NCBI RefSeq assembly: GCF_004117075.1
Contig: NZ_CP026721.1
Span: 1,860,001 to 1,924,000, forward strand
Length of the DNA stretch: 64,000 nt
Reading direction: 5' to 3'
Source of the DNA: Fervidobacterium changbaicum
GTDB lineage: Bacteria > Thermotogota > Thermotogae > Thermotogales > Fervidobacteriaceae
Part shown: piece after piece, positions 947-17,580 of the stretch
Position numbering within the stretch: position 1 is the first letter of the stretch
Layout: each line of letters opens with the position of its first letter
Translations under genes and position numbers: made by a program
The notes under the pieces: generated by a model
Seen by the model: only the letters and a program-made list of their open reading frames with translations
What the model was told of the DNA's origin: nothing
Databases searched by the model: none

Positions 947-2725
947 TTAAGAGTTGAGGGCTTTTATTAGAAATTCTTTTATATCTTCCAGTTTTTTCAA
1001 CATCTCCGTACGTTTTTTGAGTTTTTCTGGATCCTCCTCATCTTTCCAAATGCTGTAAAGTGCGTATAGCACGTTAAGAGGCTTTCTGTGACTATCTTTT
1101 GGTTTTTCGATTCCTAAGAAGTTTTCTAAGTCTATCTCAAAGTAGTAGATGCCTTTAGTAAGCTCAGTGAGGTTGTGAGATATAAATTCGTTAACAACTC
1201 TGTGACGGTTTTTGTTTGAGTCTTTGTCGATAATTACCGAATGTGGGATTCCAAGTTTGGTTAATAGGTTGACATACTTGTTGATGTTGTATTTTCCGAG
1301 GCAGTCAAGAAAGTATATACCTTTGTCCTTCAAGTCACTCCATTCATTATTTAACAAGAAGCTGAACAGTGCCTTTTCGGAAGCCCCTTCGCACAGTACG
1401 ACGTGGTTTGAGAAAAAAATCGTTGCCCTTTCTTTGTCGATCCATAGGAAGTACTTAATGGATTCTTGTTCAATTTTCTCTTCTTCAGGAGGTTCATCTT
1501 TGAGTATCTTATTTATTTCGTCGCGTGTGCTTTTATCGCACTCTTGACTATTTGCAAAATCTTTCAGATAGTTAATTAGCTCTGTATTTTCTTGGAGGAG
1601 TGCTTTAATATCTTCCGAGTTAAGCTGATAAACCTTAGTAGTGCCATTCACCCGGTTTACCCTGCACAATCCTTCTAAATCAAGCAGATTTGGCGAGACA
1701 AAAGCTGGCGAATGGGTAGTAACTACCACTTGTATATTGTCCTGTTTTGCCAGTTCTCTGAGTTTCCCATTTAAAAACTCCTGTTGAGTTGGGTGGAGGT
1801 ACACTTCGGGTTCTTCAAACAGCAAAAGGGTGAAGTCTGGATTGAATTCCTTTCGAGCAGATTTCTTTTTGGTGCTTTGCTTCTTTCTAAAGTCAGCGGC
1901 GAGTTTAATTAGCGTAAAGATTAGGTATCTTTGAACTCCCTGACCGCAATTGTTAATGTCGATGGTATCAGCGAGATTTTCATCTTTGATGTACGACTTC
2001 GTCAAGTTCTTTATTATTAGCTCCTCGGAAAGTGGCAGTATCTCAAGCCCAAACTCAAGATTCCAAGGTTTTAAAGCTTCGTTTACGTTTTTCATGAGAG
2101 CATTGATTGATAGTTCGGAATCTATATCACTTGACTGTAGGTCATTGGAGAGTTTTTCAAGTGCCTCCTTTGCTTTCTGATACGCTTTGCTACTTTCGAA
2201 GGTGCTAGCTGCAACAAGTTCAAGAAGGTCCCTAAAAGGGGATCGACCCGAGAGCTTTAGTGTTTCATTACTTGTGCTGACATCTGGTATGTAAACTAAC
2301 TTGCCTATTTTTTGTTGCCCAACGTTTTTGGCACCGTAGAAAGGTGTTTCTGACAGTTCTCCATTTGATTTATAAGCATATATACCACCGAGTTTATCTT
2401 TGTCTTCTGTATAAAACCACTTTCTAATTTTCAACGTGTTATTGGGTCCCTGATATTCTTTTGGTAACGATTTAAATTCTTCGTCCGTCAAATGATAGAG
2501 CACTTCAATCCAGCTTTCTTGAAAGTTTGTATTCTCCGATTTGTGGAGCTTTGGTAGGTCCCGTTCTTTTTCAAAAGCAAGATCCCCATACAAAACTCGA
2601 AGGGCAGACATAATGTTTGTCTTCCCAGTGTTGTTTGGACCCATCAGTACGCTGTAATCCTTCATATGAAGGGTAACATCCGTGATTGAACGGAAGTTGT
2701 GAATAGTAACTTCTTTGATTTTCAT
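947..2725 (-). CDS. OLD-family ATP-dependent nuclease (ABC-ATPase plus TOPRIM)
   Basis: A 592-residue OLD-family protein. The N-terminal ABC/RecF-like ATPase has Walker A GPNNTGKT at residues 29-36, a signature-like NNCGQGVQRY near 255, Walker B LLLFEEPEVYLHP near 300 and the switch-like TTHSP near 335. The C-terminal TOPRIM part shows VVLCEGASEK near 443 (metal-binding Glu) and IIDKDSNKN near 497. OLD proteins are DNA nucleases, several of which act in phage defence; class 2 members pair with a UvrD-like helicase (GajA/GajB), but no helicase is beside this gene, which fits a stand-alone class 1 protein. The ATG follows a purine-rich GGGGGAAGGGG site. It is transcribed alone, away from the IS remnant on its 3' side. 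Target and activity are inferred. Confidence 0.88.
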   Translation of the reverse strand: MKIKEVTIHNFRSITDVTLHMKDYSVLMGPNNTGKTNIMSALRVLYGDLAFEKERDLPKLHKSENTNFQESWIEVLYHLTDEEFKSLPKEYQGPNNTLKIRKWFYTEDKDKLGGIYAYKSNGELSETPFYGAKNVGQQKIGKLVYIPDVSTSNETLKLSGRSPFRDLLELVAASTFESSKAYQKAKEALEKLSNDLQSSDIDSELSINALMKNVNEALKPWNLEFGLEILPLSEELIIKNLTKSYIKDENLADTIDINNCGQGVQRYLIFTLIKLAADFRKKQSTKKKSARKEFNPDFTLLLFEEPEVYLHPTQQEFLNGKLRELAKQDNIQVVVTTHSPAFVSPNLLDLEGLCRVNRVNGTTKVYQLNSEDIKALLQENTELINYLKDFANSQECDKSTRDEINKILKDEPPEEEKIEQESIKYFLWIDKERATIFFSNHVVLCEGASEKALFSFLLNNEWSDLKDKGIYFLDCLGKYNINKYVNLLTKLGIPHSVIIDKDSNKNRHRVVNEFISHNLTELTKGIYYFEIDLENFLGIEKPKDSHRKPLNVLYALYSIWKDEEDPEKLKKRTEMLKKLEDIKEFLIKALNS

Positions 2726-3178
2726 ACCCCTTCCCCCCTTCTAAAGAGTGAATTTTTTTCGCCAGAAATAAACAACAGTCAACAACATAAATTTTTCATG
2801 CTTAGCGCAAGCTAAAATGATGCCGTTATGTTGTCTTTTGACCGGGTAGTGGTGTGAATCACTTTATTATTATTGTATCACAACATTAACAAAAAACATT
2901 GTGAAATTTTCTGCCAATCCTTAAGCTAAATGAAGTAAAGGCACGCAAGATTATATCTTTATTAACTAACTATTGCACATAAGCCAGAAGCAATTCATTA
3001 TGACGTTTATTTCTCTTGGACTACAAAATTGCATACACAAACTTAAACTTATGTCAGTTAAAATCGCTACCTGTGTTATTTTATATATGGTAAGCTTAAA
3101 AGAATTTCAGAGACACCTGCAATAATCTTGAAGAGTTTGGGGATGAGAACGGTATACACAGGAAGGAGGTGAGTTAGT
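2726..3178. other. Intergenic stretch, no gene recognised
   Basis: About 450 AT-rich bases between the OLD gene and a decayed small gene. It must hold the promoter of the leftward OLD gene, but no convincing -35/-10 pair stands out. Nothing else was recognised. Confidence 0.4.
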
Positions 3179-3442
3179 ATGAAAGGATATTCAAAAGACA
3201 TCTTCTGGTAGATTGCTTTGTTAGCACTTCTTTTTGGTAGCATACTTATCGATGCCATTTTATCGGATGATTAGAACGACGGTACGTCGGACCTTCGAGT
3301 TAAATTATTCAAAGAACTTGTTCGCTCTTTGATTAAACTATGCCTCAAGAAGTTGTACAATGTGCTTAAGGAACGAGTAGGTGAACCAGACTCGAAAGTC
3401 TTGAGAAAAATGGCTGAACTAGTTGAAAAAGTTATTTTCTGA
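3179..3442 (+). pseudogene. Small membrane-protein-like frame with two in-frame TAG codons
   Basis: A very strong ribosome site (AAGGAGGTGAG) stands in front of ATG at 3179. The frame encodes MKGYSKDIFW, then TAG at 3209-3211, then a hydrophobic segment IALLALLFGSILIDAILSDD, then TAG at 3272-3274, then 55 charged helical-looking residues rich in Lys, Leu and Glu, ending at TGA 3440-3442. Apart from the two amber codons the frame is open for 87 codons and protein-like throughout: one membrane helix and an amphipathic tail. Most simply it is a gene killed by nonsense changes (for example CAG to TAG). I do not recognise the family. Confidence 0.5.
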
Positions 3443-3771
3443 AAGAATGAACAGGCAACAGCGTCACAGGTACACCGAATATTATTTTTCGCGAAGGTTG
3501 AACTACGTACAAAGCAGTCTCATCGTTGAATTTTGACAGTAGGCGCCCTACGACCTTCTGAAATGCTGTTGTTGTATCGAGAAGGCACCTTTTTACCGCA
3601 TCGGGTTGGAAGGTACCGTGCAGCAACCTCTTCCAATGCTGGTAGTTCTACCACGAAAGGAAATATGCTCGAAGCGCAGATTTTGACCTTTTTAACTATG
3701 ACCTTGTCAGGGATTTGAACTACCATCCGGAACCAAGAATCCAAGACCGACTGTTGAATATTTTGCACGAG
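3443..3771. other. Probable decayed coding DNA
   Basis: Short protein-like runs appear in different + strand frames: an ATG at 3447 opens 29 codons ending at TGA 3534, and another frame near 3684-3772 reads NYDLVRDLNYHPEPRIQDRL. They are broken by stops and frame changes, so this looks like a gene relic. I could not assign a family. Confidence 0.3.
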
Positions 3772-3795
3772 GCCAGGCACCCGCCTGGCTTTTTG
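3772..3795. terminator. Bidirectional terminator, GCCAGGC hairpin
   Basis: GCCAGGC (3772-3778), loop ACCC, GCCTGGC (3783-3789), then a T run. The same hairpin precedes the 3' end of the other two sigma-like gene copies, at 8464 and 16901. Confidence 0.75.
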
Positions 3796-3801
3796 AATTA
3801 T

Positions 3802-4092
3802 TCAATCAACATCACTATCGGAGTAGAATAGTTCGTTGACTTCCGCAAGTTCGTCTGGAGAAACGTAGTCGAAGCGAATGGGTGTAAATGGCAAATGTGT
3901 GCATTTTGGTGGTTTTTTGCCGTTTATCGTGATTGATACTACTTTGTTCCTTGTGTACCAATTCAAGAACTGTTCTTCATCTCCCTTCCATCGAATTCTT
4001 GCAAGCCCACCATTAGGATATACCAAATAGTCTGCTTGAAATCTTCGTATAAACAAAGGAATGCTTTGTTGATACACCTAAAGTATGATCTT
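3802..4092 (-). pseudogene. Decayed copy of the sigma-region-2-like gene
   Basis: A truncated relative of the gene at 16931-17359. The C-terminal part (GDEEQFLNWY through the acidic tail) is in frame, but just upstream one G is missing (GGAAGGGAG where the intact copy has GGAAGGGGAG), shifting the frame. In the restored frame it reads INKAFLCLYEDFKQTIWYILMVGL-like sequence. Homology stops near 4092, so the first third is gone. Non-functional. Confidence 0.75.
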
Positions 4093-4888
4093 CTTATGAA
4101 ATCTCTTCTGTGGCGGATAACATTTGCAGGCAACCTCGACAGGAAACATTACGGCGATTCTAAAGCCCCACCTTTAGGTTTATCGTCCAGCTTATTGCAG
4201 TAAAAATTTACAAAACTGCTATTTTTTATTAACATCACACATGGTAAAATAAAAGTAACTTTCTTTTTTCATGAGACTAAAAAGCATTTATCTAATTCAC
4301 TTAACACACAAACATTCATTTGGTTAGACCAGACATTTAAACCAACGTGAGTTTGGAAGAAAGATTGTAAAAGTAACTCTGCTGTGAAGGAACGGGAAAA
4401 ATCTCAAAAAGACACGTGTAATGGTTACGAACTCCTGAACGAAAACAACGCACCCAATGTTATTACCGCTTTGCTAGAGTACCATCCCCAGTATTGATAA
4501 GCTGCATGCGTGATTTAGCAGGTTCTTGATCATCTCAGCGCCTATTTGAGTTTCTGTAATTCTCTTAGTAATCAAGAGTTTTAGCAATATGAAAACCAAG
4601 CATTCGTAATGGGAAGAAAAAATCCTTAGGCTTTTGGAATCTAGAAACGAAGGAATGTACTTATAGGCTTGGAGAAGCTACCGGCGATTACTAAGCCCCG
4701 CCAATCACCTTCACAAACTTGATAATAAAGTTATATTCAGTGGATGGCTTTTTCTCTTGCAAATTCTGTAACTCATCTACGGTCGGGTTGCGTTATAAAT
4801 GGCCTCTCCTAGGGAATGCCCCTTTAAAAATTCTGCAATGCTTTTAATTGACAGAAACAAAAGTTTGATGGAAAAGGGTACGTTTCTT
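4093..4888. other. Long non-coding stretch with small repeats
   Basis: No credible gene. Two related motifs occur: GGCGATTCTAAAGCCCCACC near 4152, where CTAAAG and CTTTAG can form a hairpin, and GGCGATTACTAAGCCCCGCC near 4682. They may be relics of mobile-element ends. The rest shows stops in all frames. Confidence 0.35.
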
Positions 4889-4889
4889 A

Positions 4890-4939
4890 GGAAATAATAT
4901 GGACTTCGGAAATTTTTAATACTTTTAGTTAACAGCATC
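4890..4939. mobile_element. Solo right end of the IS6/IS240-like element
   Basis: About 50 bases closely match the right end of the complete IS (38769-38819), including ACTTTTAGTTAACAGCATC at its tip (4921-4939). No transposase or left end accompanies it. It lies 24 bases upstream of the next gene's ATG and may contribute to its promoter. Confidence 0.75.
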
Positions 4940-4963
4940 AATCACTTAAAAGGGGTATCAAGG

Positions 4964-6622
4964 ATGATTAGACTAAAAAGTATTTTTATCAAAAACTATA
5001 GGTCTATAGGTTCCGAAGGAATTACTATTGAATTTCCAGAAAACCAACCCGTTGTAATAATTGGGGAAAACAACTCTGGGAAAACGAATATATTACGTGC
5101 CGTAGATGTTCTATTCGGAGAGTGGAATCCGAAATATAAAGAGTTTGAGGCTTGGGATTTTTTTAACAGAAGTGAAGAGAACATAATTGAGCTTAAGGCA
5201 GAAATAGAGCAATTCGATGGTATGTTACGTGAATCTTCATCAACTCTCAAGCGCTTGGAACTAAAAGTTGAGAAGGGGAAACAAAATGTCTTAACTATCA
5301 TCAACGAAGACGGAAGTAACGATGAGCGTCAAGCGAATTACGTTCGAGAACAAATCGCTTCGATTTTTATTATGTCTGAGCGCAACTTAGCGTATCAATT
5401 GAGTTACGCAAACAAGTATACATTACTATCCAGAGTTACTAAAAGATTTCACGAGAGCCTTGTTGAAAATAAAGAAAGAGTTGAAGCGCTAAAACATTAT
5501 TACGAGAGCATTATAGATGTGTTTAATGAAGTAGAGGAATTCAAAGAATTTAAGAAAATGATAAGTGGAAGTATGAATAATTTTCTTTCAAACATGTCTT
5601 ACGCACTTGGGATAGATTTTTCTGCGTACGACCCTAGCAATTATTATAAGAATTTACGGCTAGTTCCCGTTGAGAACAATGTTGTTCGTGAACTTGAGGA
5701 ACTTGGTACGGGGCAACAGCAAATACTGGCTATTTCTTTGGCATATGCATATGCAAAAGCTTTCAAAAGCGATTCAAGCCTGATTCTAATTATAGACGAA
5801 CCCGAGAGTCATTTACATCCTATGGCTCAGAAATATGTGGCGAAGGTTCTTTACGAAATGGCAAAAAATGGCTTGCAGGTTATTATTTCAACACATAGCC
5901 CATATTTTGTTGACTTAGAATATTTAGAGGGAATTAACGTTGTTAGAAGAGAAAATGGTTCTACCAGAGTGAAACAGATAAGGCGTGAAGGATTAGCTAG
6001 ATATTGCCAAGAACATGGAGCTACTAAAGCGAGTCCTGACAAGATAGTACCATTCTATGCAAAAAGCGCTACTCCAAGCATTCTTCGGGGGTTATTTTCC
6101 AAGAAAGTGGTCTTGGTGGAAGGACCTTCGGAAGAACTTGCATTGCCAATTTATCTAGAAAAGGTTGGGCTAGATTTGGTCAAGGAAGGAATCGATGTGA
6201 TCAGTGTTGGAGGCAAGGGTGAAATACCAAAGTGGTGGCGTTTCTTTACTGTATTTGATATTCCCTGCTATGTTTGTTTCGATAATGATTCTAGTAAAGA
6301 CAACGGTAGGAAGAAAACAACCGACATTTTGAATACAATAGGAATGGCTGAGAAAAACTTCTACAACGATTTTATTGAAGATAACTGGGTTATAACTGCA
6401 TCTTGTTGTGTGTTTGAGAAAGATTTTGAGGACTCTCTTAGGAAGCATTTTAAAGAATATACTATGTTGGAGGAGAATGTAAGGAACCAACTTGGAGACT
6501 CGAAACCGCTTGTTGCAAGAGAGGTTGCATTGGCGCTTTGCACAAGCCACTTCAGGGAAGATGATGAAGGTTGGCAAAAATTTAGAAAACTTAAGGATGT
6601 TCTACTGAAATTACGAAGATAG
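4964..6622 (+). CDS. OLD-family ATP-dependent nuclease, second type
   Basis: A 552-residue OLD-family protein, clearly different in sequence from the one at 947-2725. Walker A is GENNSGKT at residues 34-41; LGTGQQQILAISLAYAYAKA is the signature region; ILIIDEPESHLHP is Walker B and ISTHSPYF follows. The C-terminal TOPRIM part has VVLVEGPSEELALP, VISVGGKGEIPKWW and YVCFDNDSSKDN, giving the expected Glu and Asp metal ligands. Known relatives are nucleases in anti-phage systems or of unknown role. No UvrD-like partner is adjacent; the next gene on the same strand, 350 bases on, is a Fic-fold protein. The region before the ATG carries the solo IS end. Function beyond ATPase/nuclease is inference. 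Confidence 0.88.
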   Translation: MIRLKSIFIKNYRSIGSEGITIEFPENQPVVIIGENNSGKTNILRAVDVLFGEWNPKYKEFEAWDFFNRSEENIIELKAEIEQFDGMLRESSSTLKRLELKVEKGKQNVLTIINEDGSNDERQANYVREQIASIFIMSERNLAYQLSYANKYTLLSRVTKRFHESLVENKERVEALKHYYESIIDVFNEVEEFKEFKKMISGSMNNFLSNMSYALGIDFSAYDPSNYYKNLRLVPVENNVVRELEELGTGQQQILAISLAYAYAKAFKSDSSLILIIDEPESHLHPMAQKYVAKVLYEMAKNGLQVIISTHSPYFVDLEYLEGINVVRRENGSTRVKQIRREGLARYCQEHGATKASPDKIVPFYAKSATPSILRGLFSKKVVLVEGPSEELALPIYLEKVGLDLVKEGIDVISVGGKGEIPKWWRFFTVFDIPCYVCFDNDSSKDNGRKKTTDILNTIGMAEKNFYNDFIEDNWVITASCCVFEKDFEDSLRKHFKEYTMLEENVRNQLGDSKPLVAREVALALCTSHFREDDEGWQKFRKLKDVLLKLRR

Positions 6623-6816
6623 TAGAAGGATTAAATAACAGCGTTAACCTTCCCTTAGTTCTGCCAGTGAAGTTCTATGAACCACAGTTTAAGCCTGTAA
6701 TAGGGTGAAGCTTAAGCGTTTTCATGAAAAGTCCTTATGCCTATTGAGAGATTTTACATTAAAATCAACGCAAACTTCCCGAATCCCTTCCACAAAAATT
6801 CACGGTTTAACATACA

Positions 6817-6897
6817 CACACCACCCACGGTCTATTGTTGTTTGGATCTTATTGAAAATCCTTTTAGATTTGGCCGTGAACGGTTCTTTTGTTTTTT
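6817..6897 (+). ncRNA. Decayed copy of the hairpin RNA element upstream of fic
   Basis: It aligns over about 75 bases with the element at 15380-15458, best across TTGTTTGGAT...GAAAATCCTTTT...GATTTGG and the T-rich end CTTTTGTTTTTT. The inner GGAT/ATCC pairing is kept; the outer stem is reduced to CACGG/CCGTG, and the -10-like box is a poor TTTAAC. It lies 78 bases upstream of the fic start. Read as a degenerate sRNA or leader. Confidence 0.45.
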
Positions 6898-6974
6898 GAT
6901 TTTGAATTAGCTTTGCAGTAAAATAGAAGTTAAAAGTTGGTTGTTAATTTTTGGTAGGTAAGGGTGATGGTTGT

Positions 6975-8141
6975 ATGGCGTATTATTCTGGAAATTTGAA
7001 ATTGATTGTTGACTGGCGTGATGACGTTTTGATGGATTTTGTTGATGATTTAACCTTAGAGCATATCGAAGGTCAATTGCTTTGGGAAGAGGCTTGGCAT
7101 TCGTGTGCGCTTGATGGTGTTGTAGTGCCATTTGAAGAAATGGATGCAGTTAAAGAAATCGCTGCTAAGAGGTTGGAGTATTCAGAAGAGATAATCGAGA
7201 AGATGTTGAAAGGCAAGATTAGTGAGAAAAAATTGTCTAATGTTTTGAGCTACTCGTTTGATGATATAAAACCAAGCTGGGCGGAAGTGATAAGGTACTA
7301 CGAAGTTGCCATGGCGATGTATGGTATGGCACTGGAGATGCGCGAAAATGTGTTGTTTTTACTTCCAAAACTGCCAAGGTTGATTCACAGAAGTCTGTTC
7401 TATGGTATCCCTGGGAAGGAGAAGAGTGGGGAGTACAGAAAGACATCAAGTATCGAAGATGCCGGTGTGCCATCTTTGCTGAAAGAACTCGCCCCAAAGG
7501 ATAATATCGAAGAGTTTATGAAAATTTGGTCTGAGTTTACGAGGCTTTTGTTTGTGCAAAGGTGGAATTACACATTGGATAATGTTGAGTACTCTCACGC
7601 ATTGTTCATGAGCATCCTACCTTTCGAGTACGGAAATGGTCGAGTTGGTCGGATTATCATGAACATGCTTCTTTTGATGGCTAAGTACGGGAATGCAATT
7701 ATTTCATCAGAAGAAGAGGAAAAGAAGATGTACTTCAGAGGACTTGAGAGAGGAGCAAAGGTATTCCACGAACAGTTTGTATCAGGCCAGACACTTCCAA
7801 TGCAATTGGCAATTCTATACCAAATGCGAAGAAGTAGCGATTTGATAAAAAGCATTGTGTACGGTTTGGCTGATTCGTATGATATTTTGCTAAATTATTA
7901 TCTGAAGGATAAGCTTGTTCCATTGAGCGAGTTTGTTAAGCAGAGTGGGAAGAAGCTTTCTGAAGTTCAGCGGTTGGTGCGAAGTAGAAAGCTGATTCGC
8001 AAAAAGATAGACGGAGAATGGTATGTATATCCTGAAATTGCACCAAAATCACTCGAGGAATTTCTTGGTTCTGGTAGGATGAATACCGTTGAGAAAGAAT
8101 CCAAGCAAAATGATGGGGCAAAAAAGAAGAACAAGAAATAG
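6975..8141 (+). CDS. Fic-fold protein with a degenerate active site
   Basis: A 388-residue Fic/DOC-fold protein; Fic enzymes move AMP or a related group from a nucleotide to a target side chain. An N-terminal helix carries SCALDG, a variant of the (S/T)xxxE(G/N) autoinhibitory motif. The catalytic loop reads ILPFEYGNGRVGR (from 7614): the catalytic His of HPFx(D/E)GNGR is Leu215 and the acidic position is Tyr, while the nucleotide-binding GNGR is kept. The C terminus (LVPLSEFVKQSGKKLSEVQ) looks like a small helix-turn-helix, shared by all three Fic paralogues here. The start at 6975 was chosen over 6951 because it lines up with the paralogue at 10735 (MAYY/MSYN). Classical AMP transfer is unlikely; a scaffold or regulator role is inference. 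Confidence 0.85.
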   Translation: MAYYSGNLKLIVDWRDDVLMDFVDDLTLEHIEGQLLWEEAWHSCALDGVVVPFEEMDAVKEIAAKRLEYSEEIIEKMLKGKISEKKLSNVLSYSFDDIKPSWAEVIRYYEVAMAMYGMALEMRENVLFLLPKLPRLIHRSLFYGIPGKEKSGEYRKTSSIEDAGVPSLLKELAPKDNIEEFMKIWSEFTRLLFVQRWNYTLDNVEYSHALFMSILPFEYGNGRVGRIIMNMLLLMAKYGNAIISSEEEEKKMYFRGLERGAKVFHEQFVSGQTLPMQLAILYQMRRSSDLIKSIVYGLADSYDILLNYYLKDKLVPLSEFVKQSGKKLSEVQRLVRSRKLIRKKIDGEWYVYPEIAPKSLEEFLGSGRMNTVEKESKQNDGAKKKNKK

Positions 8142-8239
8142 TTTTTAATTCATTTGCAGGTTCACGATTATACCATTCAAAGCTGTACGAAAGAAGAAGT
8201 GATTAAAATTGGGCCGGCAAGAATACTTTGATGCAAAAC

Positions 8240-8272
8240 ATGACCTGTTGAAAGGTCAATTTTTATTTTTTT
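8240..8272 (+). terminator. Terminator downstream of fic
   Basis: TGACCT, loop GTTGAA, AGGTCA, then a run of T with one A (ATTTTTATTTTTTT). It ends the fic transcript about 100 bases after its stop. Confidence 0.65.
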
Positions 8273-8298
8273 GATCTATAGGTAGGTCAAGATTTGGC

Positions 8299-8392
8299 TG
8301 TTGCATCAACTTGCCAAAATGATGCGTCATGATGCGTTGCTGATGCGTCAACATATCTCTGTGATGCATCAATTTTATACCATGATGCATCA
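8299..8392. repeat. Helically phased array of TGATGCRTCA palindromes
   Basis: Six 10-bp units close to the palindrome TGATGCATCA start at 8299, 8320, 8330, 8341, 8362 and 8383. Steps are 21, 10, 11, 21 and 21 bases, multiples of one DNA turn, so all units face the same side of the helix. Two are perfect palindromes, two are TGATGCGTCA, and two have one to three mismatches. The array is non-coding, between the fic terminator and the next terminator. This is the layout of a multimeric protein-binding site (operator, centromere-like or replication site); its protein is unknown. Confidence 0.75.
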
Positions 8393-8463
8393 GTTCTGAA
8401 GTAATGCCAAGCTGTAAGTATCTAAAACTTGTGGATTTCTAAAACAGAGCTAAAATGAAAAAC

Positions 8464-8488
8464 AGCCAGGCACCTGCCTGGCTTTTTT
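8464..8488. terminator. Bidirectional terminator, GCCAGGC hairpin
   Basis: AGCCAGGC (8464-8471), ACCT, GCCTGGCT (8476-8483), then T6. The A-rich stretch on the left gives a U tract in the other direction too. Same hairpin as at 3772 and 16901. Confidence 0.8.
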
Positions 8489-8495
8489 CAATCAT

Positions 8496-8763
8496 TTACT
8501 CATCCTCACCATCTGAATAGAATAGTTCATTTAATTCTGCCATTTCATCCGGTGAAACATAGTCGAATCGAATGGGTGTAAACGGTAAGTGCGTGCATTT
8601 GGGTGGCTTTTTGCCGTACATCATTATAGATACTACTTTGTTTCTTATGTACCAGTTCAAAAACTGCTCTTCATCTCCCCTTCCGTCGAATTCTTGCGAG
8701 GCTGCTATAGGGATGTATCAAGTGGTTTGTTCATTTGATTGTTAATGCCCAAAAAATGCCATC
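8496..8763 (-). pseudogene. Decayed copy of the sigma-region-2-like gene
   Basis: Related to 16931-17359. The C-terminal 65 codons (EFDGRGDEEQFLNWYIRNKV through the acidic end) are in frame and end at TAA 8496-8498. Beyond about 8695 the match becomes patchy, with an internal deletion, and ends near 8763; the N-terminal half is lost. It sits convergent to the upstream fic gene, as the intact copy does at 15880-17359. Confidence 0.75.
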
Positions 8764-8936
8764 CTTTCGGTAAGCTGTGCCTTTATTATTAATTGGTGTA
8801 TTAGGATTTAAGTACGCAGAGATTTTGCGCCGTAAAAGGTAACTGATACTTGGGAGGAATAAACAGCACGAAATGAATAAAGTGATAAAATATTAAATAG
8901 GATGCTATCAACGTATCTTCAAAGGAAGTGATATAG

Positions 8937-10277
8937 ATGTCACAAGAGTGGCTACTTCCTGAGGAATTTACAGATAATGACTTTGAGGACTATGTTTCAG
9001 CATTATTACAAGTATCAGGAATGTTTGTAGAACGAAATGTTAAAATGGACAACACTCTCGAACTCGACGTAATAGTAACCGAGCTTTCTCAAAATGAGTC
9101 GCCAAGTACAACTATTGTCGAAGTTAAATCCGGCGACTGGGGCTTGGAAGATGTGTTCAAGCTCAAAGGCTGGATGGACTTTATCGGGGTAAATAAAGGG
9201 CTTTTTATCTACAGCACACGAAGAAAAAAGGAAATAAGCGAGGAAGTCAAAAGAAGATTTATGGAACTTGGGGTCCAACTGAGGTGTTTACCGCAAACTT
9301 TGAGTGAATTCGAAAAAGCTATCCAAATCCTATGTAATGAAGAACATGTTACTGTAGACGAAAAGGATGTCAAAATCTGGATGATTACACAACGAATTGA
9401 AAGAAAGTTGATGAACTTCTTAAGTTCCTTAAGAAAACATCCAGGAAAGAAATCCTCTCTACTCGAAAACTTTAAGGCAATATCTTCCAATACTAATGAG
9501 CATGCTGAACTTCTACATGAATACTATCGTATGATAAAGGACAAAGTGTTTTTCCTAAACGAGAATTTTGAAAAGCTGAAGGAACTTTACAGGGAATGTC
9601 AGAAAGGGAAGTATAGAGTTTCTGAACAGTGCGTAAGCGATCATTCAAAAAATCAAAGTGAAAAGACAGGAGGGATTCCAGAGGAGCTTTTTGAACGCAC
9701 TTTTTACGATTGCGAATTCAATATACTTCAGATTTCCACGTATATAGAACATATGGTAAGGTTATCTATACTGAAGACTGCTGTCGGGCTAATGTTATGT
9801 AAAAACTGGAAAGACTCATATGAGGATGATGAATCGATACCAAAATCATTCTACGGTGGCTTGTGTACGCTTGAGAACGAAAGTTATTCTTTCCTCTATC
9901 CTGTTTTTTGGCAATGGTTCTTGCTAGTTTTTGGTGGTTTTATCTTGCGAGACCGTGAGAATGAGGAGTTTGAGATATTATCCAGAAAAACAAAGGTGCC
10001 AGTTGAGGGGATACGAAAAGCTTTAGAAGTGTACGACAGGTTTTTTCCAAAGTTTTACGGTTCAGAACCAAAACCGTGGTTTGTGGACTTGTCAAATGAA
10101 CTAAAATTGGTCTCTTTGTTTTCATGTGTGTTTCAAGGTGTTGGAGTTTATTATCGAACTCTTTTGTATGGAAAGCCTGGTGATGTTAAGAGTCTTGGGA
10201 TTTCTGATCGGCGCACGTTGGACTACTTAGAGAAGTGTTATCATCTTGCTGAGACTGTATTTAACTCAAAAGATTGA
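8937..10277 (+). CDS. PD-(D/E)XK nuclease-like protein
   Basis: A 446-residue protein whose first 90 residues have a restriction-endonuclease-like fold pattern: a helix with Glu17, then Asp44 (LELDVIV) and the pair Glu62-x-Lys64 (TTIVEVKSG), spaced as in Mrr/VRR-type PD-(D/E)XK nucleases. The rest is mainly helical (for example IERKLMNFLSSLRKH) and was not recognised. AAAGGAAGTGATATAG gives a good ribosome site for ATG 8937. It is a single-gene unit in the island; no methylase or helicase is adjacent, so it is not an ordinary restriction system. Whether it cuts DNA or RNA is unknown. Confidence 0.65.
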   Translation: MSQEWLLPEEFTDNDFEDYVSALLQVSGMFVERNVKMDNTLELDVIVTELSQNESPSTTIVEVKSGDWGLEDVFKLKGWMDFIGVNKGLFIYSTRRKKEISEEVKRRFMELGVQLRCLPQTLSEFEKAIQILCNEEHVTVDEKDVKIWMITQRIERKLMNFLSSLRKHPGKKSSLLENFKAISSNTNEHAELLHEYYRMIKDKVFFLNENFEKLKELYRECQKGKYRVSEQCVSDHSKNQSEKTGGIPEELFERTFYDCEFNILQISTYIEHMVRLSILKTAVGLMLCKNWKDSYEDDESIPKSFYGGLCTLENESYSFLYPVFWQWFLLVFGGFILRDRENEEFEILSRKTKVPVEGIRKALEVYDRFFPKFYGSEPKPWFVDLSNELKLVSLFSCVFQGVGVYYRTLLYGKPGDVKSLGISDRRTLDYLEKCYHLAETVFNSKD

Positions 10278-10734
10278 ATCATGCACTAACGAGATACAGC
10301 TCTAGAAAGAACCATCTTTTGTTTCTTTCCACCAAAAAGTCACCTGGAAGTCAAGATTGGTAGGACGGAGCGTGGACAAGCTAATCAGTGATTAAGGCTT
10401 ATATGTTAACTAAGTGAGTTAAAATGGAAACTGAAAAAGTTTTCCTCGTAAATGCCGTTGTTTATGTTTTGTACGCAAGCAAATCCTACCTTGATTCGTC
10501 CAAGAAGATAGAATCCCAGATAGCTATGATACTTAAGTCGTTCAGTGTAAACGTCTTCTCCTTCATCTAATTTGCCTTTTTTCGAAATGTACGATACATT
10601 GTACAAACCGAACCTGTTTGTCCGATTGGAAGCGAAGTTTATTTTATTTTTTCCTACCTGGTAGCATACTTTTTTGCACACTGCTCTCAGCTTTGGTTAA
10701 CTGTTCCCGCTTCTTTCAGGCAGGTGTGATGAGG
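10278..10734. other. Intergenic stretch with a possible gene fragment
   Basis: A leftward frame (10681 to 10406, 91 codons) reads like beta-strands (LGFYLLGRIKVGFACVQ) but has only a GTG start with no ribosome site, so it may be a C-terminal relic of a lost gene. Nothing else was recognised. Confidence 0.3.
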
Positions 10735-11832
10735 TTAAACGGGAGCAATCTCGGGATATACGTACCATTTTCCATCTATCTTTTTGCGAATTAGTTTTCT
10801 GGTGTTGAGCAAGTAGTTTACTTCGGACGGTTTTTTTCCGATTTGTTTTGCGAATTCGCTTAGTGGAATGAGTTTGGCGCTCAAATATTTTGTGAGCAAG
10901 ATATCGTACGAATCCATCAAGCCGTATGCGATTGCTTTTGTAAGATGCCCGGTACGTTGTGCTTTGTATACGATTTCAAGTATCTTCAGTTCCGGTGGAC
11001 CAAATTCCAAATTCGGTGTTAGTATGAGTGTAGCTATTTCAATTCCTTTTAGGTATGTTTCTTTGTCCTTCCCTTGGGATGGGATGATTGCGTTTAGGTA
11101 GGATGCAAGCATTAGTAGAATGTTCAGAATGATTCGACTGACTCGACCATTCCCATATTCAAAAGGTAGGATACTCATGAACAATGCGTGGGAATGTTCC
11201 GCAGCGTTAAACATGACCTCGTCAGTTAATCTTCTTTTTTTCAGCAAGAACAATGTGTATTCGGCCCAGAGCTCCATGAGTTTTTCGATGTTGTCTTCGG
11301 GAGCATATTTTACGAGCAGAGGTGTAATACCAAGGTCTTTGCTGAGTACTTTCTTGTTGTTTGGTTTTCTGTACTCTCCGGCTCTGTTCTTTTCCGGAAT
11401 GCCGTAGAACAAGCTTGCGTGGATTATTTTTGGTAACAAATGAATTTGTTGGAGTATATTCATGTCTTCTTGCAATGCCAAGGCATACATTGAGGAAGCC
11501 ACTTCAAAATATCTGATTAGCTCAGCCCAGCTCGGCTTTATTCTGTCAAATGAATAGCTGAGAACTTTTGAGAGTTCTTTTTGACTGAGCCTCCCTTGCA
11601 AGAATTCTTCAATAACTTTATCAGAAAGCACGGCTCGTTGTTCAGCTATTTGTTTGATTTGTTCTATTTCCTCTCGTGGTACGATAACACCATCGAGTGC
11701 ACAAGAGTGCCAAGCTTCTTCCCAGAGCAATTGGTCGGTAATATCGTCTAATGGTAAGTCTCCGACAACGTCATCGAGCATAAATTCACGCCAGTTGGTT
11801 CTTGAAAGCAGGTTTCGAGGATTGTAGGACAT
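10735..11832 (-). CDS. Fic-fold protein with a degenerate active site, second copy
   Basis: A 365-residue paralogue of the protein at 6975-8141, matching from MSYNPRN to the C-terminal VYPEIAP. The loop reads ILPFEYGNGRVSR, with Leu222 in place of the catalytic His and Tyr in place of Asp/Glu, while GNGR is kept. LLWEEAWHSCALDGV is nearly identical in both copies. The C-terminal LIPLSEFAKQIGKKPSEVN resembles a helix-turn-helix. AAAGGAGATGAAATGGC precedes the ATG. Upstream on the same strand lies the TnpB element and, beyond it, the AAA/DUF4143 ATPase; without the insertion the two genes would be about 100 bases apart, so they were probably one operon. Both copies keep the fold without the catalytic base, which suggests a binding or regulatory role (inference). 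Confidence 0.85.
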   Translation of the reverse strand: MSYNPRNLLSRTNWREFMLDDVVGDLPLDDITDQLLWEEAWHSCALDGVIVPREEIEQIKQIAEQRAVLSDKVIEEFLQGRLSQKELSKVLSYSFDRIKPSWAELIRYFEVASSMYALALQEDMNILQQIHLLPKIIHASLFYGIPEKNRAGEYRKPNNKKVLSKDLGITPLLVKYAPEDNIEKLMELWAEYTLFLLKKRRLTDEVMFNAAEHSHALFMSILPFEYGNGRVSRIILNILLMLASYLNAIIPSQGKDKETYLKGIEIATLILTPNLEFGPPELKILEIVYKAQRTGHLTKAIAYGLMDSYDILLTKYLSAKLIPLSEFAKQIGKKPSEVNYLLNTRKLIRKKIDGKWYVYPEIAPV

Positions 11833-11873
11833 GCCATTTCATCTCCTTTCCAGAGAGTTAATTGACACTCCCA

Positions 11874-11942
11874 ATCCCCTAAAGGGGATCGGATTCTTAG
11901 TAGCTCAAGGCTACCTTCCATGGAGAAGTGCTTACTCCATGG
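11874..11942 (-). ncRNA. Probable omega RNA 3' region of the TnpB element
   Basis: Three hairpins in a row at the tnpB 3' end and right end: CCATGGAG/CTCCATGG (11918-11942), GTAGC/GCTAC (11900-11914) and ATCCCCT/AGGGGAT (11874-11889). TnpB guide RNAs are made from this position in studied elements. Only structure is seen; expression is inferred. Confidence 0.5.
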
Positions 11943-13095
11943 CTACAAAGGTGTGGCTTAAATCTCACACCTTTGACGGGTGCCAATCCCGCTACTACTT
12001 GGTTGCTGCCAAGATACCTTTTATATATGTTTACTGCTCCTACTCCATCCCTGTGATACTCAAACCCACATTTTGCACACTTGTACCTGCGACCTTCTGA
12101 GTGATTTTGTTGTCCACACACCGGACACATTCTGCTTGTATAACTTTCTGAAATTTGCTCAACTTTTATCCCGTGCACCTGCGCTTTGTACATTATTAGG
12201 TTTGTTATTCGTCTAAAGCACCACTGATGCACTTTTTGCATTGCGTTGTCGTTGCCTTCTACTCTTTCTCGAATGTTTGTGACATCCCCTATCACGATGG
12301 TGTCTATTGCTTTTTGATAACACATCCCCACAAATTGGCTCGTGATTTTGTGCAGTATATCGTTCAGCTGGTTGCTTAGTTTTCTCAACAGTTTGTTTTT
12401 TGCTCTTAGAACCTTTCTGTACCTTCTTGAGTCTTTTTTGCATTTACTGACTGCAGTTTTGCCAGTTCTTTGTTCCTTAATGCACCACCATGATATGAAA
12501 CGACTTCTTGACCATCAAAGAAGGCGATGGGACGGAGTATGCCCAAATCTACCGCTACAAGCTTTGTGTCTTTTTCTTTGCGCTCTTCAATCTTCACCTC
12601 TATTCCAAGGTGAAGATAGTATCTGCCTGCTTCATACACCAACTTAGCTTGTCTAATCTTTGCAGCAGATGGCAGACTTGTTTGAATCTCAAAAGGCTCT
12701 CTGTCTTTGCCTAAGGATAGCCTCAATCTACCATCGGGCAGAAGTTTGATTGCACTATCTTTCCAAATGAAGGGCATGAACTTTTTTGTTTTGTACGGTG
12801 GTTTTGCATCAGGATTGGACTTAAGGGCTTTAAAATAACCATCGAGGGCTTGGAAGTAGAGTTGGACAAACGCTTGCTTTGAGTGAGTGTGAATATTGAT
12901 GCTGGAAGCCCAACGAAGGATAAACTTTTGTGCGCTATTTTCAGAAAGCCAGAAGTCTTTCTTTTGTTTGATTTTCCTGACAAGAGAAAGAGTTTTGTTG
13001 TAGATTCTTGCTGCAGTTTGGTTAAGTTCGTTGCACATAGTATACAATTCAGCTGGAACAGGAACTTTGTAGGTTCGGATTATATATTTTGGCAT
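11897..13095 (-). pseudogene. tnpB: TnpB RNA-guided nuclease, single-base frameshift
   Basis: TnpB split into two frames. The first part (from ATG 13095, after AAGAAAGGAGGTGAG) has the wedge/recognition region and RuvC-I motif VAVDLG. The second part (to 11897) has QISESYTSRMCPVCG and RYKCAKCGFEYHRD, giving a zinc ribbon and RuvC-III. The frame breaks near 12445-12452, where one base is missing; restoring it gives SKCKKDSRRYRKVLRAKNKL, a continuous TnpB sequence. RuvC-II reads IVIGDV, with Gly where many TnpBs have Glu; the Glu of SESYTS may stand in, as in the lineage with a rearranged active site. Otherwise full length, so it was inactivated recently or carries a read error. Confidence 0.88.
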
Positions 13096-13212
13096 GTGCG
13101 CTGGCTCACCTCCTTTCTTAACAATTATACTAGATTTCTTGAACAAAACTTGCAAGCCCTTACTACTCCCCTAAAGGAGAGTAGCTTGCGGGCTTGTTAA
13201 TGTACTGTCAAT

Positions 13213-13236
13213 CTCAAAACAAGTGAAGGTTTTGAG
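13213..13236. other. Hairpin downstream of the ATPase gene
   Basis: CTCAAAAC and GTTTTGAG pair with an 8-base loop. It lies between the ATPase stop codon and the TnpB element. No clear T run follows, so terminator function is uncertain. Confidence 0.4.
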
Positions 13237-13281
13237 TACGTGGGATCAGTAGATTTTAAAAGCACTGGAAATTATACATTT

Positions 13282-14451
13282 TCACCACCCCATTCCGAGT
13301 GTCCACATGGGAATGGCATTTCTCACCGGCAGGTCTATATCGTCCCTTATCGCATAATGTGCCTGCTTTCTTTTCTTGTTAGCCCCTCCTATTTCTATGG
13401 TTATGTTGTTGTATACGTAGTCACCTTTTGTTTCATCTTTTTGAGCCAATAGTGTCCCTCTATCTTTTAGTGCAAAGACGACAAATGCTTCACGGAAGTT
13501 GCCGATTTCTCCATCCAATGCGCTGTAGATAACTGGGTCTGAGAAGAATATTTTCGCACCTTTTGAGTATGGGCTTTCGATGAGAGATTTTTGAACGATG
13601 GTTACGAGCCCGACTTGGCCCATGGCATTTAGAAGTTGATAGAGCTTTTCTTTGCTCAGTCTCCATTCTTTGCACATGCTTTCTACGTTTATTGTCGGTA
13701 TTTTCGAGTATGCCAAATAGCTAACGATGGCGTTCATGACTCCGAAATGGTTCTCACTTAGTGTACCAACGATGTGAGGGATATCGTAGTAGATGGATTT
13801 TTGGATGATGTTCATGATGCGGTCTTTGAAGTTTGGTTCAGTGTAGAATGGTCTTGTGCCGTGGTCTTTATAGGATTTGAAGTATTTCATCACGTCGACC
13901 TCTCGGAGTATTTTCATCGATATATCCGATAGTTCGCTACTGAACGGGTCGGTAATAACAGGCAGTATTTTTCCTGTCTCAAAGTGTATGAACTCTCGTA
14001 AAGACATGAGGGGAAGTGAGATGATAACGAATCTTCGCGAGAGTTCCGCGATGCTTTTGTGCAGCATTATCGAACTACTATCACTAATCCATATTTTTTT
14101 GTTCGGAAATGAATCGTAAAGACTTTTGAGTTGGATTCCCCAATCTTTTAGAAAATGTATTTCATCGATGATTATTCCATCGTAGGATGAAAGGATATGT
14201 TGGCTCAGCTCGTAGAACGGGACAACACCAACAAGCGGGTCGTCTGCGGATATGTAGAACATGTTTTCTTCCTGCGCGATTGAGAGCAGGAATGTCGTTT
14301 TTCCACTACCACGAGGTCCACATAATAATATTCCTCTGCTTACGAAGCGCTTTTTCAATTCCTCAAAGTACAATCTTCGCTTTGCTGGAAGAAAAGATAT
14401 AGACCTTTTCATTCTCAATTCAAGTAGTTCCAGCACATTCTCGATGTTCAT
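13282..14451 (-). CDS. AAA ATPase with DUF4143-type C terminus
   Basis: A 389-residue P-loop ATPase of the AAA_14/DUF4143 type. Walker A is GPRGSGKT at residues 45-52 and Walker B is DGIIIDEIHF (Asp96, Glu97), followed by KKIWISDSSS as sensor 1. The middle part (LSLREF-like LMSLREFIHFETG) and the winged-helix-like region (SKEKLYQLLNAMGQVGLVTIV) match the usual plan, ending in a nuclease-like DUF4143 fold with VVFALKDRG and NNITIEIGG. Members are common in thermophiles and archaea, mostly without known function. Upstream is an array of CGTTCT-N5-AGAACG palindromes, which may be bound by the winged helix for autoregulation (inference). A dead paralogue at 57120-58058 has a similar array. Confidence 0.85.
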   Translation of the reverse strand: MNIENVLELLELRMKRSISFLPAKRRLYFEELKKRFVSRGILLCGPRGSGKTTFLLSIAQEENMFYISADDPLVGVVPFYELSQHILSSYDGIIIDEIHFLKDWGIQLKSLYDSFPNKKIWISDSSSIMLHKSIAELSRRFVIISLPLMSLREFIHFETGKILPVITDPFSSELSDISMKILREVDVMKYFKSYKDHGTRPFYTEPNFKDRIMNIIQKSIYYDIPHIVGTLSENHFGVMNAIVSYLAYSKIPTINVESMCKEWRLSKEKLYQLLNAMGQVGLVTIVQKSLIESPYSKGAKIFFSDPVIYSALDGEIGNFREAFVVFALKDRGTLLAQKDETKGDYVYNNITIEIGGANKKRKQAHYAIRDDIDLPVRNAIPMWTLGMGW

Positions 14452-14503
14452 GACCTACACCTCCAAGTGTTGTGCAAGTTTCAGAACTATTATACATCAT
14501 TTT

Positions 14504-14605
14504 CGTTCTTTTTCAAAACGAAAAATGCAAAAAATTTAGAAACCGTTCTCTAACAGAACGATTTTGTTTGAAATTCGTTCTCTATGGAAACGAATCGGTA
14601 GAACG
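14504..14605. promoter_or_regulatory. Operator array of CGTTCT-N5-AGAACG palindromes
   Basis: Three 17-bp sites upstream of the ATPase: 14504-14520 (CGTTCT TTTTC AAAACG), 14544-14560 (CGTTCT CTAAC AGAACG) and 14576-14592 (CGTTCT CTATG GAAACG), plus a half site AGAACG at 14600. All have a 5-base centre. Starts are 40 and 32 bases apart, near four and three DNA turns. The same motif with 32/41/32 spacing lies upstream of the paralogue at 58083-58204. Confidence 0.8.
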
Positions 14606-14655
14606 ATTTGGAGCTTATGCTTACAAGATTAAGGATAGATAGTGTCTGAGCGTGT

Positions 14656-15299
14656 TCACTCTTCAGGTTCTTCTTCCAGCTCTTCTTCGTATCAGGATAC
14701 TGCTTTGGTGGCTTGCCGAAGATTTCAAGGATTGCAGGGGATTTCTTGTTCGGTTCTGGTTCGGTGATTTTCTTTAGTTCCACAATGAACTGCCACTCAT
14801 CGCCGTAGTCAAATAGGAATAGCATTTTTTGGCGGGGTCATGTGAAAACTTGGCAGACTTTGACTTTTTTTACACCTTTCTTTGTCGGTAGGTTCTTGAT
14901 TATACGCTCCACTAATTTGTACTTCTCGGGTGGCAGGTCTGAGAATAATTTTTTAAGGTCCACTATGCCTTCATCACCTTCCAAGTCTGTTTTGAGTTCG
15001 TATCGTACTTTTGAGTTGATCCAGTTTTTTGTGTTGTCAAAAAAGTCGAAGAGATGGTCGAAATCAAATTCGAAAGCGTCGATGATCGTTAATCCCGGTC
15101 GATAGGGTGTGGTTTTGCCCAGAACTGCGATGACTGGGTACGGTGGCTCATCAACTTCTTCCAAGAATGGCGCACGTATCCAAGATTTTGCGAGGGTGAC
15201 TCTGAAGATGTAGAGATTGTTGTTTAATTGAGAGCTGCTGAGAGTTTTTTCGTTTTTGCCTTTCGTGCGTTCAAACTTTCTTTTTTCTTGCTTGTACAC
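14656..15299 (-). pseudogene. Plasmid pRiA4b ORF-3-like protein, nonsense and frameshift
   Basis: The first part (15299 to 14841) has the family's start pattern (LYIFRVTLAKSWIRAPFLEE, FDHLFDFFD). It stops at TGA 14838-14840, but the same frame continues as PRQKMLFLFDYGDEWQFIVE, the hallmark FDFGDxW block. Further on, after GKPPKQYPD, one base is missing; restoring it gives YEEELEEEPEE and a stop at 14656, the acidic end usual for the family. So there are two lesions in one otherwise complete gene. The family's function is not established; members occur on plasmids and islands. In-frame TGA as selenocysteine is not supported. Confidence 0.8.
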
Positions 15300-15344
15300 T
15301 CATTATTTTAACAAATTTTGGCTTTAGAATTTTTGAATCAAAGC

Positions 15345-15373
15345 TGTTGAAAGCGGAAGATTTGTGGTATAAT
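15345..15373 (+). promoter_or_regulatory. Promoter of the hairpin RNA
   Basis: TGTTGA (15345-15350), 17-base spacer, TATAAT (15368-15373). The G-rich start of the hairpin at 15380 is 7 bases after the -10 box, the expected transcription start. Confidence 0.7.
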
Positions 15374-15379
15374 ATTTTT

Positions 15380-15458
15380 GGGACCACCCTTGACCTCTCG
15401 TTTGTTTGGATTATTTGAAAATCCTTTTGAATTGGGGCGTGGGTGGTCCCTTTGTTTT
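15380..15458 (+). ncRNA. Small hairpin RNA or fic leader with its own promoter
   Basis: GGGACCACCC (15380-15389) pairs perfectly with GGGTGGTCCC (15441-15450) and is followed by TTTGTTTTAT, so the transcript would begin and end in the same 10-bp stem with a terminator tail: a compact RNA of about 75 nucleotides. Inside the 51-base loop, GGATT and AATCC can pair. A decayed homologue lies upstream of the fic gene at 6975. This unit lies 420 bases upstream of the fic start at 15880. It could be a free small RNA or a transcription attenuator; no known family was recognised. Confidence 0.6.
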
Positions 15459-15879
15459 ATATTTAAAAACAGTCTTGAGACATCACTAAGTTAGATGGGA
15501 GACTGGAAAAGTGAGAAGAAATAGTCAAAGCTGTAGTTGTGTGTGGTGAGATTAAAGCGACAGATGAGGCCAAGAACTTTGCAAAAAAACACATAAATTG
15601 TAAGCGACAGAAAATAAAGTACATTTTTAAAGGCTCTTGCTAATCGTGAGTACGACTTTGTGATAAAATAAAGATAGCTGTGATTGAACAATGTTCTGTC
15701 TTTTCGTATTACACTAAAGTTATTAACAAATTTCACAGGTGTAACTACTTGTCCAGATGTCGCTTTTTAACTTCAAACAGGACAAAGGGATGCTGTTCGA
15801 AAATTATTTAGATAAAGAAACTTTGGTTCAGATGTATACAGCCTCTCGAAAAAAGTGGACAAAATACGGAGGTTACAAT

Positions 15880-16845
15880 ATGAATAACATGTTAACAAGG
15901 CTAGTAGAGTGCAGAAGAAGTGTTTTTAAACCTATCTTTGTTGAAATAACAAATAAAGAATGGTTATATAGGCTTAAGGAAGAAACAAGGAATTCCCTGA
16001 TGATTGAGGGCATTTTTGTGGATGAGGATGAATTAGACAGAGCTTTGAATACAAACTACAAGTCGGCAAGTGAAGTGGTGAATTATTTTAAAACGGCAAG
16101 ATTTTTCTACAATCTAGCTTTTGAGTATTCCAAGACGCAGGAAAAGTTGTTGACTGTTGCTTTAGTGAGAACATGCCATAGAATGTTGTTTGATGGTTTA
16201 ATCCAGAATGAGAGCCGACTTGGAAATTTTAGATATGGACCAATAAAGATAACTGGTGCGAAAATTAAACCGTCAGAATACGATATTGCAGACTGGGTTA
16301 AGTTGTGGATCAGATATGTAGAATATGCCTATCAAAAACACCCAGTTCACGAAGCCACCGCAAGAACTCATGTGTTGTTTGAAAGCATCCATCCTTTCGA
16401 GGATGGTAACGGCAGGATAGGTAGAATTTTGACAAATACTATTTTGATCTACTATGGATATTTGAATATAGTAGTTAAAGGTATGGATGACAGTGAGCGT
16501 ATGGAATATATTAAGGCGTTGGAAAGTGCGGAAAAAGGGATTAGAAAGTTGTTCCGAGAGTCAGCAAACGATCAAACGCCAGAGAAGATAGATGCAATGT
16601 TCTCAACGGAGGATACAAAACCACTTGCAAGAATGATAGCGTACAGTTTAATCGAGGCTTTTGATAGGGAAATTTGTTCTGCTAATAGGGATAAATTGGT
16701 TAAAGTCGACGAATTTGCAAATCAGATTGGAAAGAGTGCGGATGCAGTGAGAAAGATGATAGAACGTAAGCAATTAATTGCGATAAAGCCAGAGGGTAGG
16801 TGGTTGGTGTATCCACAACTTTTGAGTGATTGTACAATAGAATGA
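15880..16845 (+). CDS. Fic domain protein with a canonical active site
   Basis: A 321-residue Fic protein with the full motif IHPFEDGNGRIGR (catalytic His171 at 16390), expected to transfer AMP or a similar group to a target. An upstream helix carries SLMIEG, a good match to the (S/T)xxxE(G/N) inhibitory motif, so activity is probably self-restrained. The C terminus (KVDEFANQIGKSADAVRKMI) is a helix-turn-helix-like domain shared with the other two Fic proteins. The frame is open from 15757, but ATG 15880 follows a perfect CGGAGG site and gives the same N-terminal length before the inhibitory motif as the paralogues. Convergent with the sigma-like gene 85 bases away. The target is unknown. Confidence 0.88.
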   Translation: MNNMLTRLVECRRSVFKPIFVEITNKEWLYRLKEETRNSLMIEGIFVDEDELDRALNTNYKSASEVVNYFKTARFFYNLAFEYSKTQEKLLTVALVRTCHRMLFDGLIQNESRLGNFRYGPIKITGAKIKPSEYDIADWVKLWIRYVEYAYQKHPVHEATARTHVLFESIHPFEDGNGRIGRILTNTILIYYGYLNIVVKGMDDSERMEYIKALESAEKGIRKLFRESANDQTPEKIDAMFSTEDTKPLARMIAYSLIEAFDREICSANRDKLVKVDEFANQIGKSADAVRKMIERKQLIAIKPEGRWLVYPQLLSDCTIE

Positions 16846-16900
16846 TAAGTATTTAACCTTGTGGATTTTAAAAACACCGAAGATTGGAAAAACGAAAAAC

Positions 16901-16923
16901 GCCAGGCGCCTGCCTGGCTTTTT
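16901..16923. terminator. Bidirectional terminator between fic and the sigma-like gene
   Basis: GCCAGGC (16901-16907), loop GCCT, GCCTGGC (16912-16918), then T5; the left flank AACGAAAAAC gives a U-rich tail leftward. Third copy of this hairpin in the window. Confidence 0.85.
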
Positions 16924-16930
16924 CAGTCGT

Positions 16931-17359
16931 TCAATCATCCTCACCATCTGAATAGAATAGTTCATTTAATTCTGCAAGCTCATCTGGGGAAACGTAGTCG
17001 AAGCGAATGGGTGTGAATGGCAAATGTGTGCACTTTGGTGGTTTTTTGCCGTACATCATTATAGATACTACTTTGTTTCTTATGTACCAATTCAAAAACT
17101 GCTCTTCATCTCCCCTTCCGTCGAATTCTTTAAGGCCTACCATTAGAATATACCAAATAGTCTGTTCGAGGTCTTCATACGAATAGAGGAATGCCTTGTT
17201 GATACCCCAAAAGTATGCCGTCCATCTGCGCACGAGGTGCTTGTAGCTTAGCACTTTTTCGTGCCATTTGCGGATGTCTTCTGATTTTGCGGCTGGTTGT
17301 TGGTCTTGCTCTTCTTGCCCGAATTGTTCTTCAAACGGATTTTGTTTACCTTGTTGCAT
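16931..17359 (-). CDS. Small protein resembling sigma-70 region 2
   Basis: A 142-residue protein, intact. The first 25 residues are Gln/Glu rich. Residues 40-100 (YSYEDLEQTIWYILMVGLKE, then FD, then QFLNWYIRNKVVSI) follow the pattern of sigma-70 region 2, where EDLxQ and a helix ending in NKV contact the RNA polymerase clamp and the -10 element. There is no region 4 or helix-turn-helix; the tail is short, with an acidic end (FYSDGEDD). AAGGAGGTTAATCC precedes the ATG. Its own promoter overlaps a palindrome. Two decayed copies lie at 3802 and 8496. It could be a truncated sigma, a polymerase-binding regulator, or a fold that only looks alike. Confidence 0.55.
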   Translation of the reverse strand: MQQGKQNPFEEQFGQEEQDQQPAAKSEDIRKWHEKVLSYKHLVRRWTAYFWGINKAFLYSYEDLEQTIWYILMVGLKEFDGRGDEEQFLNWYIRNKVVSIMMYGKKPPKCTHLPFTPIRFDYVSPDELAELNELFYSDGEDD

Positions 17360-17409
17360 TGGATTAACCTCCTTGCAGATGAGTTTTGAGGATGGTTACC
17401 AGTGGGGGG

Positions 17410-17458: not shown

Positions 17459-17580
17459 GGGGAGAGTGACAAGGGAAAGATACAAAACGCATGCCAATTA
17501 GATGTATCTACTGAGTTTTACACTTTCTTTGGATAAATTTTTTGTTCCACGAAGGGATACAACTAATTGGAGGTGGTTGT

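Follow-up and report, generated by a model that had tools for sequence, protein, structure and literature searches.

What does a regular series of short palindromes do in the chromosome of Fervidobacterium changbaicum when no gene starts directly beneath it? The stretch of DNA analysed, here called the window, is 64,000 nucleotides long, and the series, array A, occupies positions 8299..8392, exactly where it had been predicted. Array A most likely serves as a docking strip for a candidate regulatory protein, the target gene being missing at the window locus. More specifically, we see an approximately even chance that it constitutes a multi-site operator (a silencer or upstream regulatory array) from the control region of a defence gene, orphaned here.

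Architecture of array A

Array A comprises five TGATGCRTCA palindromes at constant 21-bp steps. The unit at 8299 (TGTTGCATCA) has one mismatch to this word; those at 8320 and 8341 (TGATGCGTCA) and at 8362 and 8383 (TGATGCATCA) match it exactly. The original prediction had placed six units on multiples of 10.5 bases; five of them do hold exact 21-bp steps, but the one at 8330 is degenerate and half-phase. Words similar to it occupy one spacer per array across the Fervidobacterium arrays, and the spacers of array A are mutually unrelated sequences. The elements in and around the array are as follows.

8299, 8320, 8341, 8362 and 8383, no strand assigned: units of array A, recognised from the sequence and from matching arrays in relatives
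8330 to 8339, no strand assigned: degenerate half-phase unit TGATGCGTTG, two mismatches, half a step off the 21-bp register
8272 to 8289, minus strand: motif B site 1, a TGACCTN6AGGTCA palindrome with one mismatch
8241 to 8258, minus strand: motif B site 2, a perfect TGACCTN6AGGTCA, 31 bp from site 1
8374 to 8382, minus strand: extended -10-like word TGGTATAAA in the last spacer, flanked by units 8362 and 8383, with TGGTATAAT as its counterpart in the relative G008
8167 to 8175, minus strand: second TGGTATAAT, extended -10-like and conserved in G008
8464 to 8483, no strand assigned: bidirectional terminator-like hairpin right of array A
6951 to 8141, plus strand: Fic-domain gene left of array A (Pfam Fic; weak PADLOC SoFic)

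The array is unique in its own genome. A genome-wide cluster search, as originally proposed, has found no second 21-bp pair of TGATGCRTCA outside array A in the 2,266,349 bp of the host, leaving it as the sole cluster with that step, and single words are rare, with five copies elsewhere (four within TnpB genes and one within an aminotransferase-like ORF). Eight Markov-shuffled 64-kb windows contained no phased triples of 10-bp palindromes, and among the loci scanned for such triples the A arrays were the only ones.

A minus-strand ORF of 44 amino acids spans the array, and a stop interrupts its frame in G008, the syntenic relative. Judged by its reading frames, array A is outside any conserved ORF, in agreement with the non-coding location first assigned to it. 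This stop, together with a 20-bp step in two Thermosipho copies, indicates that the array is not a coding repeat; nor does it resemble a simple tandem repeat, its spacers being unrelated and no frame being conserved.

The location had also been taken to rule out a promoter of either neighbouring gene, a claim that is now doubtful, since an extended -10 lies on the minus strand inside the array. In G008 this word agrees with TGGTATAAT at 9/9 positions, a score equalled by 4 of 5000 spacer shuffles, and in the window at 8/9, equalled by 90 of 5000. In both genomes it is enclosed by the array, as TGGTATAA(T/A) between units 4 and 5. The enclosed pattern is inconsistent in the second array of G007 (G007b), in G014 and in G016, and in G007 and G004 the closest -10-like word faces away from motif B or is missing.

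Occurrence of array A in related genomes

A survey of 61 relatives was followed by 20 more, and a search for two exact TGATGCRTCA words, allowing any gap from 8 to 38, took in 103 Thermotogota genomes. It yielded 13 distinct pairs in five genomes, and the gap was 11 nt in every one. The repetition of a palindrome at whole helical turns that characterises PDC-S01-type phased operator regions is present in 13/13 pairs, with a 10-bp palindrome and 21-bp steps. The array of the Thermosipho genome G016 is degenerate, its mismatches letting it escape the exact search, and represents a sixth array-bearing genome. In G008 the array is syntenic and has five units; three units make up each of the two arrays in G007 and the one in G004, and both Thermosipho genomes (G014 and G016) have three units each with steps of 21 and 20. 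Array A is missing from most genomes of the family. Where it occurs in relatives, it lies in variable anti-phage defence islands.

Between loci the spacers vary and the units hardly do so. When 20 units of five genomes are compared, no variation is seen at positions 1, 5, 6 and 8, and each remaining position deviates in at most three units; the units, like the motif B half-sites, are almost perfect in G007, G004 and G008. Between the window genome (G000) and G008, one of 50 unit bases has changed as against eight of 44 spacer bases (p 0.011). Measured against the third codon positions of the neighbouring Fic gene, of which 37 of 382 have changed, the conservation of the units is not significant (p 0.11). 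The palindromic core, the two-turn spacing, the contrast of near-invariant units with variable spacers and the recurrence of the array make a protein-loading array, as originally suggested, the best reading.

G028 and G038 have two-mismatch matches whose spacer is TGGTATA-like; these were dropped on account of their position inside ABC-transporter coding sequence. Matches outside the family, in genome and viral contigs, were likewise rejected: they are isolated pairs, copied-spacer tandem repeats or repeats within coding sequence, and most 21-bp matches in other phyla are of these kinds. Array A matched no plasmid or phage, Rfam gave no match to it (one sub-threshold match fell elsewhere), and a literature search on the TGATGCRTCA word and on DUF4143 returned nothing bearing on it.

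Motif B and the class B ATPases

In the window, two 18-bp palindromes, the motif B pair, lie ten bases left of array A. Such a pair, with sites 31 bp apart in the window and 32 bp apart in the relatives, adjoins every Fervidobacterium array (the window, G008, both in G007, and G004), five loci that amount to three independent arrangements (window/G008, G004/G007a and G007b). The polarity is constant, array A lying upstream by 10 to about 160 bp when one reads along the B pair. The Thermosipho arrays occur without motif B.

Motif B pairs without array A have been detected in six genomes from two sister families; none was found in viral contigs. In G021, G024, G037 and G007 the pair precedes the promoter and start of one orthologous, 65%-identical AAA_14/DUF4143 ATPase, 46-57 bp 5' of its start codon, the gene of G037 being on the other strand. 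This placement before the ATPase promoter is thus known from Thermotogaceae and one relative. The G007 ATPase has been assigned by PADLOC to PDC-S01 (8e-112), a widespread single-gene defence candidate (PMC12988326). G007 also provides the one locus where the gene downstream of A and B survives: array A comes first, then the B pair and a -10, and last the undamaged gene for a class B PDC-S01 ATPase, about 250 bp downstream of array A.

These observations bear on the two terminators between which the array had been said to lie. The right one stands, as the terminator-like hairpin at 8464-8483, but the left one (8241-8258) belongs to the conserved motif B pair and is better read as an operator than as a terminator. 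Since B pairs precede the starts of PDC-S01-type ATPases elsewhere, this supposed terminator would be part of a defence-gene operator. It had further been stated that nothing in the flanking genes explains the array. Locally this is so, but the array belongs with the adjacent B pair, a motif located before PDC-S01 ATPase promoters at other loci.

Class C operators

A second type of PDC-S01-like control region is present within the window itself.

13282 to 14451, minus strand: PDC-S01-like AAA_14 ATPase, class C
14504 to 14592, no strand assigned: class C operators, CGTTCTN5AGAACG-type palindromes at 14504, 14544 and 14576 (steps 40 and 32), 5' of the class C gene
58115 to 58204: second class C operator set (58115, 58156 and 58188), before a broken second copy of the gene
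13207 to 13273, no strand assigned: sequence that follows the array in G008, starting inside the last unit (GTCAATCTC...)

Four such sites, at steps of 32-41-32 bp, are found in G011, G012 and G017, where TGGTATAAT separates site three from site four in the reading direction. The operators span 8628-8749 (L140), 7697-7818 (L141) and 8812-8933 (L142), and this fixed helical geometry recurs in several genera. The class C operators apparently form an autoregulation-like code not described previously. Two more PDC-S01-like classes have other palindromes. A single-sequence AlphaFold model of the class C ATPase had a mean pLDDT of 33 and was unusable.

Like these control regions, whose sites lie before or around an extended -10, array A consists of short, helically phased palindromes in defence islands, although the dimensions differ: 10-bp palindromes at 21 bp in A, 18-bp ones at 31-32 bp in B and 17-bp ones at 32-41-32 bp in C. 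In the window and G008 a comparable extended -10 lies on the minus strand within array A, which thus appears to be built like the class B and C control regions. In contrast to them, it has no ATPase start directly beneath it.

A further connection concerns occurrence. Among 20 family genomes, array A is restricted to those that have the class C ATPase or, for G004, the operators of that gene (6/0 versus 3/11), an association with a p of 0.002, or 0.018 counting genes only, in a test that ignores phylogeny. The class C orthologue of G008 ends about 320 bp from its array; G014 has the gene on one contig and the array on another. This co-occurrence is suggestive of a relation between the two, and shared islands may be its sole cause.

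Proposed function and competing explanations

In the operator reading, PDC-S01-type ATPases in the Thermotogales would have a family of palindromic control regions, helically phased and specific to each class, with array A as a member; in Fervidobacterium A and B would form a composite control region of which A is the upstream half. A sequence-specific dimeric protein is expected to occupy the 10-bp palindromes in a row along one helix face, its contacts setting the 21-bp spacing; from this geometry we infer protein binding, cooperativity and repression at array A. ArgR boxes, which are AT-rich, 18 bp long and about 21 bp apart centre to centre, and the lambda operators are cooperative multi-dimer operators. 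As in array A, several dimer sites share one face of the helix, a likeness that suggests cooperative binding here too. The TGATGCRTCA core matches neither, and array A differs from both in its five consecutive units and the lack of an adjacent gene. No gene starts directly under the array in any of the six genomes, and after the window array and its B pair there is no PDC-S01-type ATPase gene, which makes the window array an orphan; a class B or C ATPase coding remnant was sought beside it and not found. The inherited control region could now act only on a short minus-strand transcript starting inside it, or it could be a recent remnant.

The main rival holds that A and B are the functionless, decaying remains of a deleted defence gene's control region, which we consider possible, with a clearly smaller probability than the operator. 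Such deletions are documented. In G033 and G027 (L111 4985-5200, L112 5075-5290) the B pair, promoter and start codon run straight into the codons for the final ~30 residues of the class B ATPase, the central part of the gene being deleted, and in G022 the pair precedes an internally deleted copy. A gene-free stretch of 0.8 kb in G004 (L092 14893-15716) brings together three A, two B and three C sites plus a TTTATAAA-type palindrome, and the surroundings of the window array are heavily rearranged. Decay, however, is not what the units and B half-sites of G004, G007 and G008 display, nor would it leave units less changed than spacers between G000 and G008. Moreover, no native gene of array A was found in the 103 genomes, so that the array would have to be a scar at every known locus. 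A nucleoprotein site acting outside transcription (partition, recombination, decoy or recruitment of a defence nuclease) would need no adjacent gene, and it would suit an array that is an orphan at all loci, often between convergent genes, that is exactly phased and present in one or two copies per genome, and that is confined to genomes where a class C PDC-S01 ATPase gene or its operators occur, with gene and array on separate contigs in G014. We regard it as unlikely: absence from most relatives implies that the array has no essential chromosome role, and the neighbours scanned include no Par, Rep or recombinase families. Plasmid iterons and parC/parS-type centromeres likewise consist of short phased repeats onto which many copies of a protein load, a likeness that lay behind the original suggestion of a partition site or iteron. 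That suggestion is not supported, given the patchy occurrence in variable islands, the lack of Par and Rep in the scanned neighbours and of a plasmid or phage match, and the fact that only the palindromic core is conserved. Slightly less probable still is that the orphan arrays are working parts of the islands. As fixed chromosomal docking strips they would retain or titrate either a defence regulator or the PDC-S01 ATPase-nuclease itself, which would stay switched off until competed for by invading DNA. If true, orphan arrays would be functional in Thermotogales defence islands and not leftovers.

Action at the RNA level, with the repeats pairing in a transcript as hairpins with 10-bp stems and 11-nt loops, seems very improbable. 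Pairing between units is feasible, and the variable base, both in the window and in G008, is consistently a G at position 7 of one strand, which would allow G-U pairs; yet the Thermosipho copies carry the change on either strand, Rfam offers no match, and RNA pairing needs no exact 21-bp phase. Chance or ordinary tandem duplication, to which most 21-bp matches in other phyla can be ascribed, retains a negligible probability here. It is refuted by the recurrence of the array at several unrelated loci, and in addition the spacers differ while the units match and shuffles gave no comparable array.

At least two classes of PDC-S01-type genes in the Thermotogales have their own phased palindromic operator code, and under the operator reading array A would be a third such code. 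The codes can serve directly as DNA baits for finding the regulators, and array A would offer a concrete handle on the silencing of candidate defence ATPases.

Neighbourhood of the array

Selected neighbours scanned include Fic, OLD, AAA_14, ATPase_2, Mrr_cat, TnpB, RloB and PIN families. The C-terminal domain of the Fic protein had been put forward as a candidate binder of the array; adjacency is the one point in its favour, and the surroundings of the Thermosipho arrays showed no Fic ORF. In the window, about 4.8 kb including an IS605-type tnpB separate array A from the G008-type continuation at 13207. The end of this inserted block, at 13206/13207 beside the tnpB, abuts GTCAATCTC, that is, the inside of the last G008 array unit.

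Positions 947-20000 form a dense defence island with two OLD/Gabija-A-like ATPase-TOPRIM genes, three Fic genes, a Mrr-type endonuclease, PDC-S01 and ATPase_2/AbiEi-like genes. A small protein (16931-17359, minus strand) recurs next to Fic genes; it has remnants at 3802-4077 and 8498-8730, and its copies are often 5'-truncated. It has a weak, sub-threshold match to Sigma70 region 2 (E 0.0014), and region 4 was not seen. The ATPase_2 gene and the sigma-like one share a divergent promoter at 17417-17447, whose -10 is overlain by tandem GTATACATAC-type palindromes spaced 10 bp apart.
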